Assembly (NCBI GenBank): GCA_002049795.1
Contig: MUKC01000004.1
Span: 1-64,000, forward strand
Source: Desulfobacca sp. 4484_104
GTDB lineage: Bacteria; Desulfobacterota; Desulfobaccia; Desulfobaccales; Desulfobaccaceae
Direction: 5' to 3'
Length of the DNA: 64,000 nt
Positions 36,775 through 42,580 of the stretch are shown piece by piece (position 1 is the stretch's first letter; each line of letters begins with the position of its first letter). The translations under genes were made by a program, and so were the position numbers. Under the pieces are notes generated by a model, which did not search any database, had not been told where the DNA came from, and saw only the letters and a program-made list of their open reading frames with translations.

Positions 36775-36868
36775 GGAGGGGTACCGAAGAGGCCGTAACG
36801 GGGTCGACTCGAAATCGACTTGGGGGCTAATCACTCCCACGTGGGTTCGAATCCCACCCCCTCCGCCA
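36775..36868 (+). tRNA. tRNA-Ser (CGA)
   Basis: Acceptor stem GGAGGGG/CCCCTCC, discriminator G, encoded CCA. Anticodon stem GTCGA/TCGAC with loop CTCGAAA gives anticodon CGA (reads UCG). A long variable arm (GGGGGCTAATCACTCCC) marks a class II tRNA, and the T arm is GTGGGTTCGAATCCCAC. Confidence 0.95.
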
Positions 36869-36875
36869 TAATTAG

Positions 36876-36955
36876 TTTTCTATTTTCTGTTATTGATTAT
36901 TTGCCGCGTCAAGTCTAAGCCAACAGAAAACCGAAAACAGAAAACCGAAAACAGT
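36876..36955. repeat. A-rich repeat between the two serine tRNAs
   Basis: GTTTTCTATTTTCTGTT on the left is complementary to AACAGAAAACCGAAAAC on the right, which repeats (CAGAAAACCGAAAACAGAAAAC). Same general class as the spacers after glyS and rny. Confidence 0.5.
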
Positions 36956-36962
36956 TTTTCTA

Positions 36963-37055
36963 GGAGAGATGCCCGAGAGGCTGAAGGGGCGCGACTGGAA
37001 ATCGCGTGTACGCCCAAAAGGTGTACCGAGGGTTCGAATCCCTCTCTCTCCGCCA
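36963..37055 (+). tRNA. tRNA-Ser (GGA)
   Basis: Acceptor GGAGAGA/TCTCTCC, G discriminator and encoded CCA. Anticodon stem CGCGA/TCGCG with loop CTGGAAA gives anticodon GGA (reads UCC/UCU). Long variable arm (TGTACGCCCAAAAGGTGTACC) and T arm GAGGGTTCGAATCCCTC. Confidence 0.96.
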
Positions 37056-39539: not shown

Positions 39540-40145
39540 ATGCCAAAAGGAATCTATCCGGCCCCGCTCCAGAAGGTAGTTAATTGTTTAAGTAAGTGGC
39601 CGGGGATCGGGGAGAAAACTGCCGCTCGCCTGGCCCTTTATCTCTTACGGGCCTCAACTGCCGAGGTTGCCGAACTTACTGAGTCTATTGCCGCGCTAAA
39701 GGATAAAATCCGTCTCTGTTCCCGCTGTTTTGCCTTTGCTGACCAGGAATTATGTCCAATTTGTGCTGATCCTGACCGGTATCAGGGTCAGTTATGTGTG
39801 GTTGCCGACCCCGGCGATCTGTTGGCCCTGGAACGGCCCGGGTTTTTTGCGGGAGTTTATCATGTCTTGGGCGGACTAATTTCCCCCTTGGAAGGCGTCG
39901 GACCGGAGGATCTTCGGATCGCCGAGCTATTCTCCCGCCTGGAGCCCGAAAACATTAAGGAAGTAGTGCTGGCCCTTAATCCCAGCCTGGAAGGGGAGAG
40001 CACCACGGCATATTTGTCAGAACAACTTCGCCAGCAAGGAATAAAGGTGACTCGCATTGCCTATGGCATCCCCATGGGCGGCGATCTGAAGTATTGCGAC
40101 CAGCAGACCCTCAAGGAGGCCCTGCGCCATCGGGTGGAGGCCTAG
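39540..40145 (+). CDS. recR: recombination mediator protein RecR
   Basis: 201 residues. Helix-hairpin-helix (CLSKWPGIGEKTAARLALYLL), zinc finger Cys60/63/72/75 (CSRCFAFADQELCPIC), and the Toprim domain (LCVVADPGDLLALERPG, VLALNPSLEGESTTAYL) are intact. It acts with RecO/RecF in gap repair. Its last 12 codons (40111-40145) are duplicated at 41427-41461, beyond an inserted AT-rich segment. Confidence 0.96.
   Translation: MPKGIYPAPLQKVVNCLSKWPGIGEKTAARLALYLLRASTAEVAELTESIAALKDKIRLCSRCFAFADQELCPICADPDRYQGQLCVVADPGDLLALERPGFFAGVYHVLGGLISPLEGVGPEDLRIAELFSRLEPENIKEVVLALNPSLEGESTTAYLSEQLRQQGIKVTRIAYGIPMGGDLKYCDQQTLKEALRHRVEA
40111..40145 (+). repeat. direct repeat copy 1 (recR 3' end), possible attachment site
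   Basis: 35 bases covering recR codons for LKEALRHRVEA and the TAG stop. It matches 41427-41461 at 30 of 35 positions. All five differences are C-to-T or G-to-A in the second copy. Together the pair brackets the 40146-41426 islet. Confidence 0.7.
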
Positions 40146-40263
40146 CAGAATCGGGGATTAACCCAAAAGCTTGGTATTTATTGAGGGGCACCAAGGTTGT
40201 CCAAACATTTCGATTTGCTTAACCTAATAGTGGTAATGGCAGAAAAGTTAGATGGAGCCGTAA

Positions 40264-40941
40264 ATGCCAACAAAATATGATTTGCAACATGTCGAGATTA
40301 TTTACAAAGCGGAGTTCAGTCCACCGCTTCTGGAAATTGCTTTACCTCAATATCAAGCTCAGTTACTGAATCTCCTCTGTAAGGAATTCGATCTGAAATT
40401 CAGAGACTTTGTTTTTAATAATCAGGCAATTAGCTCTGGACTGATATATTTCCGACGTTTTATTAGTCATGCTCCAGAGTTTTTTGATACCTTGATAGGA
40501 GCGGACGAACTTAAGACTAGCTATGTAAACCCTGCCACGGAAACCAAGGCATGGGAACTAACGTTGAGGCTCATGGCTGCAGTAAGCAAGTTAGGACAAC
40601 TAAATTTCAAAACTCAAACTTTAACTTTTAATTTGCACTGCTTAGCGGCAACATCTACTTATGCAGATTTTATTAATGATATCGTAACGTTTAAAAAGAA
40701 AGCAGACATTGTTATCTCAAGAGGTGCCACCTTTCTGATCCAACTACCCTGGCCAGGCTGCAATTTAAATATGATTTTTGACCGTTCTATGATAGTTGAA
40801 AATGGACTTTTTATGCAAATTCACGCTAACTTTGGTGAATCGGTGCAAGAATATCAAACTTTATTTGCCGATACCGTCTCTATACTGAAGGAAGACATTG
40901 AACCCATTTTTAATATCCAGTTGATATACAAGGAAATGTAA
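40264..40941 (+). CDS. islet protein 1, unknown function
   Basis: 225 residues, no recognised family. It reads as a mixed alpha/beta soluble protein: strands VEIIYKAEFSPP, LTFNLHCLAAT and FLIQLPWPGCNLNMIF, with a helical middle (TKAWELTLRLMAAVSKLGQL). No membrane segment, nucleotide-binding loop or cysteine motif is visible. GGAGCC precedes ATG 40264 at a good distance. Base composition is clearly more AT-rich and the codon choice differs from recR and rodA beside it, suggesting transfer. The next gene starts two bases after its stop. Confidence 0.7.
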   Translation: MPTKYDLQHVEIIYKAEFSPPLLEIALPQYQAQLLNLLCKEFDLKFRDFVFNNQAISSGLIYFRRFISHAPEFFDTLIGADELKTSYVNPATETKAWELTLRLMAAVSKLGQLNFKTQTLTFNLHCLAATSTYADFINDIVTFKKKADIVISRGATFLIQLPWPGCNLNMIFDRSMIVENGLFMQIHANFGESVQEYQTLFADTVSILKEDIEPIFNIQLIYKEM

Positions 40942-40943
40942 CA

Positions 40944-41291
40944 ATGGAAATTCAAACCGGTATTGGACAACCCCGGACTTCAAGAAATATTGGGCAATTG
41001 GTATGTGGAATAACTGCTGGTTTCCCGGATCAGATAGAATATGGGACAATATCAGATGTTCAAGGACGATATTACGATAAGGTTTATAAACAGGGGCCCG
41101 GTACGTGTGCTGAATGCTATGGTAGCAGCATAACTCTCTGCGGCAGCGACTCTGTCATGTGGACTATTAAGTTCAAGTATCCTGATACACTAGAGCGCTT
41201 TAAATTTCCTATACGAAATAAGGAAGAAGGCGCAACAGAGATAACAGATTCTGGGATTATAAAGATAAAAATTGGGGCATTGTTGATATAA
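40944..41291 (+). CDS. islet protein 2, unknown function
   Basis: 115 residues, beta-rich (QLVCGITAGFPDQIEYG, then YYDKVYKQGPGTCAECYGSSITLCGSDSVMWTIKFKYP), with three cysteines in a short loop (TCAECYG and TLCG). No family recognised. It starts two bases after islet protein 1 with AAGGAAATG upstream, so the two are one transcriptional and probably functional unit. AT-rich like its partner. Whether they act together (for example as a toxin-antitoxin or defence pair) cannot be read from sequence. Confidence 0.65.
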   Translation: MEIQTGIGQPRTSRNIGQLVCGITAGFPDQIEYGTISDVQGRYYDKVYKQGPGTCAECYGSSITLCGSDSVMWTIKFKYPDTLERFKFPIRNKEEGATEITDSGIIKIKIGALLI

Positions 41292-41305
41292 CCAGCTTAT
41301 TGATC

Positions 41306-41404
41306 ATGAAGAAATGTCATTGTCAATATGCCCTTGCCTTCGATCAACATTTTCGGGAAGCTGCTGAACAGTTTGAACATCCCTTCAAGGTTCTGGAGCT
41401 TTAA
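41306..41404 (+). CDS. 32-residue reading frame at the end of the islet
   Basis: MKKCHCQYALAFDQHFREAA then EQFEHPFKVLEL, ending TAA. It is a clean short frame in the AT-rich islet, but has no ribosome site I trust and no recognised family. It could be a gene remnant carried with the insertion. Confidence 0.2.
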   Translation: MKKCHCQYALAFDQHFREAAEQFEHPFKVLEL

Positions 41405-41426
41405 ATTAAGGTTTAGCAATAAATCT

Positions 41427-41461
41427 TTAAGGAGGCCCTGTGCCATCGGGTGGAGACTTAA
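41427..41461 (+). repeat. direct repeat copy 2 (duplicate recR 3' end)
   Basis: Still spells the recR tail in frame (KEALCHRVET then TAA) six bases before rodA. It is the partner of 40111-40145. The short distance to rodA suggests recR and rodA were adjacent before the islet inserted. Confidence 0.7.
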
Positions 41462-41467
41462 GCCCAG

Positions 41468-42580
41468 ATGCTGATCGATCGGCGCTATATCCATAATTTT
41501 GACTGGTTCCTGCTGAGCCTGGTGCTGATCATTGTTTCCGTGGGCATTCTTAATCTTTACAGCGCCGGACTGAGTCAAGCCGTCAAACAAGACACGCCGT
41601 TATATATCAAGCAACTTTACTGGCTGGGGATCGGTTTCGGGCTGATGTTGGCGACCTTGCTGTTTGATTACCGCTACCTGGAGAAAGCCGCCTATCCGAT
41701 CTTTTGGTTCACCGTGGCCTTGTTGGTGGCCGTGCTGGTAGTGGGCAAAGTAGTCTCCGGCTCCCAGCGCTGGCTACCCCTGGGGCCGTTATCTTTTCAA
41801 CCCTCGGAACTGACCAAGTTGGCCATTATCCTGGCTCTGGCGCGCCACTTTTCCCCGCGCGAGGAATTGACCCACCTGGGTATTCGAGAATTGTTGTTTC
41901 CTTTTCTGCTCGCCGCGGTTCCTTTCTGTCTGGTAGCCAAACAACCGGATCTGGGCACCGCGTTGTTAATCGCCCTGATCGCCGCCGCGATGGTTTTGTT
42001 TGTCGGGGTGCGCTGGCAGGCCCTGATAGTGTTGGCCAGTAGCTTATTATTATTGTCCCCGATCCTTTGGCACTTTCTTAAGGATTATCAGAAACAGCGT
42101 ATTCTTACCTACTTGAATCCCGAAGGTGACCCGTTGGGCGCGGGCTATCACATTATCCAGTCTAAAATTGCGGTAGGTTCTGGCCTGTTATGGGGGAAGG
42201 GTTTCCTGGCCGGGACCCAGAGCAAGCTTAATTTTTTACCGGAACAGCACACCGACTTTGTATTTTCAGTCTTTGCGGAAGAATGGGGCTTTGCTGGTTC
42301 GATAGTTATACTCCTGCTTTATACCCTGTTGATTCTCTGGGGACTCCAGATTTCCCGATCTTGTAAAGAGCGCTTCGGCAATCTGCTCGCCGTGGGCATC
42401 GTCGCCATGATCTTCTGGCAAATATTTATTAATATCTCTATGGTAACCGGAATGTTGCCGGTAGTCGGCATTACCCTGCCTTTGTTTAGCTATGGCGGGT
42501 CATCGTTAATTTCCACTCTGATGGGCATCGGCTTACTCCTTAATATCCGTATGCGCCACCAGCCGGCCGGGTCAATTTGA
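41468..42580 (+). CDS. rodA: rod-shape-determining protein RodA (SEDS glycosyltransferase)
   Basis: 370 residues, about ten membrane helices. SEDS motifs are clear: GSQRWLPLGPLSFQPSELTKLAIILALARHF, QPDLGTALLIALIAAAMVLFVGV, LNPEGDPLGAGYHIIQSKIAVGSGLLWGKGF, LPEQHTDFVFSVFAEEWGF and LPLFSYGGSSLI. RodA polymerises lateral-wall peptidoglycan with its PBP2 partner; FtsW is the alternative, but the length and GSQRWLPLGPLSFQPSE form favour RodA. The partner mrdA is not in the window. Confidence 0.93.
   Translation: MLIDRRYIHNFDWFLLSLVLIIVSVGILNLYSAGLSQAVKQDTPLYIKQLYWLGIGFGLMLATLLFDYRYLEKAAYPIFWFTVALLVAVLVVGKVVSGSQRWLPLGPLSFQPSELTKLAIILALARHFSPREELTHLGIRELLFPFLLAAVPFCLVAKQPDLGTALLIALIAAAMVLFVGVRWQALIVLASSLLLLSPILWHFLKDYQKQRILTYLNPEGDPLGAGYHIIQSKIAVGSGLLWGKGFLAGTQSKLNFLPEQHTDFVFSVFAEEWGFAGSIVILLLYTLLILWGLQISRSCKERFGNLLAVGIVAMIFWQIFINISMVTGMLPVVGITLPLFSYGGSSLISTLMGIGLLLNIRMRHQPAGSI

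Follow-up and report, generated by a model that had tools for sequence, protein, structure and literature searches.

A probable decayed toxin–antitoxin-like cassette in the recR–rodA junction, an integrase-free insertion hotspot of the order Desulfobaccales

The stretch of DNA analyzed, referred to as the window, comprises 64,000 nucleotides from Desulfobacca sp. 4484_104 and contains an AT-rich islet between the core genes recR and rodA. The features mapped from recR to rodA (39540–42580) lie on the forward strand. The left-hand flank is an intact recR (39540–40145; NCBIfam TIGR00615, 2.3e-70), the product of which is 97% identical to that of the sister genome G001, and the right-hand flank is rodA (41468–42580; TIGR02210, 2.9e-131). 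Two open reading frames from the ORF listing, ORF1 (40264–40941, 225 amino acids) and ORF2 (40944–41291, 115 amino acids), are located between them at a distance of 2 bases from each other. The G+C content of the islet was 0.35–0.42 versus 0.53–0.62 in most of the flanking intervals; thus, the gene order, the spacing, and the distinct composition described in the initial annotation agreed with the coordinates and the G+C drop. Scans of the islet for Rfam families, terminators, and an excess of promoters gave no result. A pair of tRNA-Ser genes with the anticodons CGA and GGA (36775–37055, within 300 bases) precedes the block formed by dnaX, ybaB, and recR, and the genome encodes a second RecR-like protein with 40% identity (G000:C150:5445–6023).

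The 3′ end of recR is present in two copies, an inner copy attached to the gene (40110–40145) and an outer copy (41426–41461) that ends six bases before the ATG of rodA. Over 35 bases (40111–40145 versus 41427–41461), 30/35 positions are identical. A repeat search over the 64 kb returned no other such match, against a chance expectation of 0, and local alignment of the two copies scored 49, higher than each of 100 shuffles (maximum 27); the direct repeat reported initially is therefore real by both measures. All five differences had been assigned to the outer copy as C-to-T or G-to-A changes. Their types were as described, but polarization with G001 and G002 as outgroups placed only two of them in the outer copy and two in the inner, recR-attached copy, with one ambiguous. 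When the 36 columns including the stop codon were considered, six differences were counted (three outer-derived, two inner-derived, one ambiguous), and the final GCC-TAG of the inner copy carries two derived changes. As the derived changes are split between both copies, the picture of an intact gene copy next to an outer copy decaying by C-to-T changes is only half right.

In G002, a genome of the same genus, the recR end and the ATG of rodA are about 9–10 bases apart, and only a single recR end is present. This empty site bears out the earlier proposal that recR and rodA were once adjacent. The outer copy, the six-base spacer, and rodA of the window align as one block to the recR tail–rodA junction of G002 (81% over 1392 bp). 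Because of this collinearity, and in line with the polarization, the outer copy represents the native end of recR, still in its ancestral place before rodA. Insertion of the islet into the ancestral recR–rodA junction at the 3′ end of recR, with the gene kept whole, is thereby supported. The sister genome G001, with a RodA 96% identical to that of the window, has the same junction filled by other cargo. The recR next to the islet was 93–100% identical to that of G001 outside one variable stretch (87–88%), and no divergent donor-like tract was found when the window recR, including its 3′ end, was compared with that of G001. Thus, any donor DNA came from a close relative or from the cell itself.

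The product of ORF1 showed no match to Pfam, NCBIfam, PHROGs, or PADLOC, so that for this gene the initial statement of no recognized family held, and a sequence search of solved structures gave nothing significant. Three members of the ORF1 family were found, the two relatives being 44% (locus L002; G023:C113 = VGSW01000113.1) and 31% (locus L003; G032:C143 = DTXE01000143.1) identical. Two peptide-pattern scans of 84,980 species genomes recovered only the two relatives already known, HMM searches of about 395 genomes, carried out twice, added none, and none were found in viral contigs, plasmids, or phages. Assignment of ORF1 to TIGR04255 was rejected (no NCBIfam match with hmmscan; hhalign probability below 1%). 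The genes for TIGR04255 proteins (L150–L165) mostly have a small gene of variable sequence behind them, with an overlap of a few bases. This arrangement resembles that of ORF1 and its partner; a sequence relation between these proteins and ORF1 was not detected.

In VGSW01000113.1, the genes downstream of the ORF1 relative are, in order, gene 2 (encoding 110 amino acids), an intact PIN gene (Pfam PIN, 1.9e-10), rodA, and ATP synthase genes. The three cassette genes overlap by a few bases, and the PIN gene is located directly before rodA (L002/L059). Gene 2, which overlaps the PIN gene, had no match in Pfam or PADLOC and no recognized antitoxin domain. Upstream of this cassette lies a gene other than recR. 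The MAG G023 contains two rodA genes (G023:C6 and G023:C113), 61–62% identical to that of the window, and for this reason the contig may derive from a different member of the order. The cassette resembles VapBC-type (PIN) systems in that the PIN gene is placed immediately 3′ of a small gene; it differs from them by the extra 225-amino acid ORF1-type gene ahead, by a gene 2 without a known antitoxin family, and, in the window, by a PIN gene reduced to a fragment. The PIN relatives examined in the phylum had small VapB-like partners, none with an ORF1-type gene upstream. In an intact cassette, the PIN protein would act as an RNA-cleaving toxin restrained by gene 2 and/or ORF1. In DTXE01000143.1 (L003/L058), a 187-amino acid gene lies downstream of the ORF1 relative, and next to it comes an ORF with a YYSAF motif and, in another frame, DYKL. 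The latter looks like an apparently frameshifted HEPN-like gene, judged by these motifs; Pfam gave no confirmation.

With the PIN protein of L002 as query, window positions 41243–41371 aligned to PIN residues 89–131 at 58% identity (E = 9e-13). The frame of this match, which differs from that of ORF2, runs on to a stop codon at 41402–41404, giving a PIN remnant at 41243–41404 that comprises only the C-terminal third and that had been missed when the content of the islet was described as two genes only. The first two thirds, including the N-terminal VDASAW segment and the N-terminal catalytic Asp, are complete in L002 and missing from the window; the toxin therefore cannot work here. Gene 2 was not detectable in the window.

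ORF2, which had likewise been described as without a recognized family, does match one. Its residues 63–99 hit the C-terminal family of AprB, the beta subunit of APS reductase (PF12139; 4e-8, 33.8 bits versus a cut-off of 25), and a search with an HMM trained on about 20 AprB sequences gave 1.8e-14; the score against full-length TIGR02060 was 25 bits versus a cut-off of 135.65. Residues 46–59 align to the AprB stretch KAYNQEPxQCWECY and residues 60–100 to SSTIPLRGTDSIMWTIKF...FKFPIRTTxEGSIDV, which defines an aprB-derived segment at 41079–41243 (amino acids 46–100). Between the two blocks, 23 AprB residues are absent in frame, and with them the second Fe-S cluster motif (4Fe-4S); the N-terminus of ORF2 is unrelated to AprB. 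A normal aprB is present elsewhere in the genome (contig C106). The aprB and PIN fragments join at about 41243, so that ORF2 consists of an N-terminal part (residues 1–44) unrelated to AprB, an aprB fragment, and out-of-frame PIN sequence. A relation of the N-terminus to gene 2, suggested by a short DxQGxYYxxV match, was rejected after shuffling (p = 0.035–0.10). Given an aprB fragment devoid of its second Fe-S motif and the PIN debris, ORF2 is best interpreted as a chimera of debris and not as a conserved gene.

The initial annotation had proposed a compact cargo pair for defense or addiction. Such a working two-gene module, in which ORF2 would be a novel effector or antitoxin based on the domain of the AprB tail, would be consistent with two open frames only 2 bases apart and with the in-frame nature of the 23-residue deletion. 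It is nevertheless highly improbable, as ORF2 contains an aprB fragment that has lost an Fe-S motif and ends in out-of-frame PIN sequence, and as no other genome was found to pair ORF1 with an ORF2-like gene. The expectation that ORF1 and ORF2 travel together thus failed; members of the ORF1 family are paired with different genes, after which comes a PIN or HEPN-like gene.

Whether ORF1 is still maintained was evaluated with the three derived changes in the 36 columns of the outer copy, a small number of sites, as a measure of neutral divergence since insertion. At that rate, ORF1 should have acquired ∼2.6 stop-creating substitutions, and it would have escaped all of them with a probability of ∼0.08, which, in view of the few sites, is suggestive of maintenance. 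That ORF1 is still open may reflect either a recent loss of the toxin or its own retention, perhaps in the role of an orphan antitoxin or sensor. A harmless partner of this kind would be compatible with its persistence in the window, which has no working toxin, and in DTXE01000143.1, where the neighboring HEPN-like gene appears to be broken.

An AlphaFold2 model of ORF1, computed from the three-sequence alignment (pLDDT 77, pTM 0.79), displayed a beta-alpha-beta4-alpha arrangement occurring twice, in agreement with the succession of elements in the duplicated TBP fold. The best PDB match in Foldseek was chain U (178 residues) of a human Pol III initiation complex, which we take to be TBP (probability 1.0, E = 7.6e-5, TM 0.33–0.40). 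Viral TATA-box-binding proteins were on top of the BFVD list, and weak matches to RnlA-like phage proteins were obtained. A second model with the relative at L109 as query had a similar order of elements, nearly agreeing with the duplicated TBP order; no TBP-like match was found among its top 50 Foldseek hits. Sequence symmetry between the ORF1 halves was not detectable, and the duplicated fold therefore rests on the predicted structure. We tentatively assign a TBP-like fold to the ORF1 model. If true, this would be of interest since the RnlA/LsoA (RNase LS) toxin families also carry TBP-like domains, there linked with a HEPN RNase in a toxin–antitoxin system (PMC3710099, PMC7221094). Unlike RnlA/LsoA, ORF1 is a separate protein that lacks a nuclease domain, and it had no RnlA sequence match in Pfam or NCBIfam.

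The genes recR and rodA are neighbors throughout the order. In 21 resolved recR–rodA junctions, the gap ranged from 10 to 3986 bp; 13 exceeded 400 bp and hold inserts of 0.4–4 kb, and the other eight were ≤178 bp. For the neighboring junctions ybaB–recR and rodA–atp, the maxima were 456 and 725 bp, respectively, within the 1.5-kb flanks covered. The cargo differs between genomes. G001 carries a pair matching the PADLOC candidate defense system HEC-01A/B (7.6e-101 and 5.7e-51; AAA_21 and DUF4276), G004 and G014 a ParE-type toxin gene preceded by a small gene, and G011 a nucleotidyltransferase (MNT) and HepT-like pair (MNT-HEPN), with similar ORFs in G012. In G006, the tail of gene 2 (E = 8e-6) is followed by a truncated PIN gene. 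A common family of 176–257 amino acids with a D...VEAKA motif is found in the junctions of G007, G011, G012, and G025 (members at L097:461–1195, L062, L066, and L096); one member tested had no match in Pfam or PADLOC, and from the motif the family may possibly represent a PD-(D/E)XK nuclease, perhaps a new stand-alone one. Judged from their sequences, we take genes in the junctions of G012, G014, G020, and G022 to encode a polysaccharide deacetylase and a methyltransferase. Neither an integrase nor another mobility gene was seen in the islet or among the ORFs of the 13 occupied junctions. The recR–rodA junction is thus a recurrent integrase-free insertion hotspot for toxin–antitoxin, defense, and other cassettes in the order. 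The defense or addiction character proposed for the islet fits the cargo of relatives (HEC-01, ParE-type, MNT-HEPN, PIN); the compact intact pair did not stand.

Empty junctions, differently filled ones, and ones with the same cassette are all demonstrated among the relatives, and their distribution bears on when the cassette arrived. Three genera, represented by the window, G006, and VGSW01000113.1, have the cassette or its remnants ahead of rodA. This would be expected if the ancestor of the order already carried it at recR–rodA and passed it on vertically, with loss or replacement in most descendants and a recR duplication unrelated to its arrival. We regard this course of events as unlikely since the nearest relatives are empty (G002) or differently filled (G001) and since the outer copy in its ancestral position ties the duplication to the insert.

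CAGTAGT-like heptamer arrays are present on the recR side of the gaps in the sister family (L102 in G016, L107 in G023, L062 in G011, and L055 in G017), and in several of these gaps the reverse complement of the heptamer is found at the rodA side. Such arrays could provide extra homology for insertions.

Core defense hotspots (cDHS) of Pseudomonas aeruginosa are not obviously part of one class of mobile elements, and their transfer by homologous recombination through the flanks has been suggested (PMC10250203). Like these, the recR–rodA slot has conserved core genes as flanks, variable defense cargo between them, and no dedicated mobility genes, the formal term cDHS being defined in P. aeruginosa only. 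It differs from cDHS by its tiny size (0–4 kb, one or two cassettes), by its occurrence in another bacterial group, and by the duplicated recR 3′ ends.

Extra recR 3′ ends were found in three of the 21 junctions, with lengths of 35 bp in the window, about 91 bp in G011, and about 99 bp in G017; the duplication is absent from G001 and from most of the occupied junctions. The copy in G011 is 97% identical over 88 aligned bases and sits between the MNT-HEPN pair and the nuclease-like gene. This arrangement reads as the entry of a new cassette beside recR at a time when the nuclease-like gene was already in place in the junction, as it is in the congeners G007 and G025. The copy in G017 is decayed, and a palindromic GGCGGCCACGGGCCGCCC-type element is located ahead of it in the same insert (L055). 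The copies begin at different recR codons, two of the left ends being close together near codons 170–172.

Insertion exactly at the end of a gene that is left whole, recR-end duplications in three genomes, and the proximity of two left ends would all be accounted for by a small integrative element of the ICE or phage-satellite type that inserts site-specifically at the recR 3′ end, with its integrase supplied in trans or lost and the repeats serving as attL/attR. The initial annotation had compared the insertion with that of integrative elements. Of this comparison, the position at the recR 3′ end, the preserved gene, and the missing integrase were retained; the varying length of the recR segments did not fit. 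Unequal repeats of 35, about 91, and about 99 bp do not suggest a single fixed att core, so that a constant-core repeat is missing along with an integrase, which was seen in none of the 13 occupied junctions. Most of these junctions have no recR-tail repeat, and the cargo is unrelated between genomes. An integrative element is therefore an improbable source of the islet.

With no mobility gene seen in the inserts, the insertion mechanism has to be read from the scars. At one side, incoming DNA carrying recR and a cassette would pair with the resident gene; at the other, it would be joined illegitimately inside the 3′ end of the resident recR. The product would be a full recR, then the cassette, and then the original recR tail before rodA. 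Taken by itself, we give this homology-facilitated illegitimate recombination slightly less than an even chance. A one-sided homologous insertion model has been proposed for the T6SS effector–immunity arrays of Vibrio cholerae (PMC5361080). The recR–rodA slot is similar to these arrays in the successive modular insertion from a conserved anchor, with displaced remnants, and there with retained immunity genes; it differs in that the anchor is the core gene recR and not an effector cluster, and in that the cargo consists of toxin–antitoxin and defense cassettes (PMC5361080).

Overall, the islet is probably a decayed toxin–antitoxin-like cassette with the original layout ORF1–gene 2–PIN RNase, residing in the recurrent integrase-free hotspot between recR and rodA. 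The intact PIN homologue in a relative, the loss of most of the PIN gene and the presence of an aprB fragment in the window, and the recR-end duplication in three genomes are direct observations. Arguments against this reading are the lack of a visible mobility gene in the inserts, the absence of a divergent donor tract from recR and of a duplicated tail from G001, the non-recR gene upstream of the cassette in VGSW01000113.1, and a gene 2 with no recognized antitoxin domain. A further-reaching proposal is that ORF1 founds a previously undescribed family of antitoxins or sensors with a duplicated TBP-like, nucleic acid-binding fold, which would control interchangeable RNase toxins (PIN or HEPN-like, depending on the lineage). 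Such cassettes would enter the recR–rodA slot without an integrase by capturing the 3′ end of recR, each insertion leaving a single recR tail behind. We consider this proposal doubtful in its full form.

The islet may also serve as a caution, as a seemingly novel compact pair may turn out to be one real gene plus an ORF composed of an aprB fragment and toxin debris. Defense and toxin–antitoxin cassettes are often located in core-gene hotspots in which no mobility gene is visible. The recR–rodA slot can be read base by base in its empty, occupied, remnant, and double-occupied states, with the recR-end scar present in three genomes. Owing to its small size, the several states, and the scars, one-sided homologous insertion becomes testable as an entry route. 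The recR–rodA slot itself is the larger finding: it is short, has gained cassettes with no integrase in sight, and repeatedly bears scars of the recR end.
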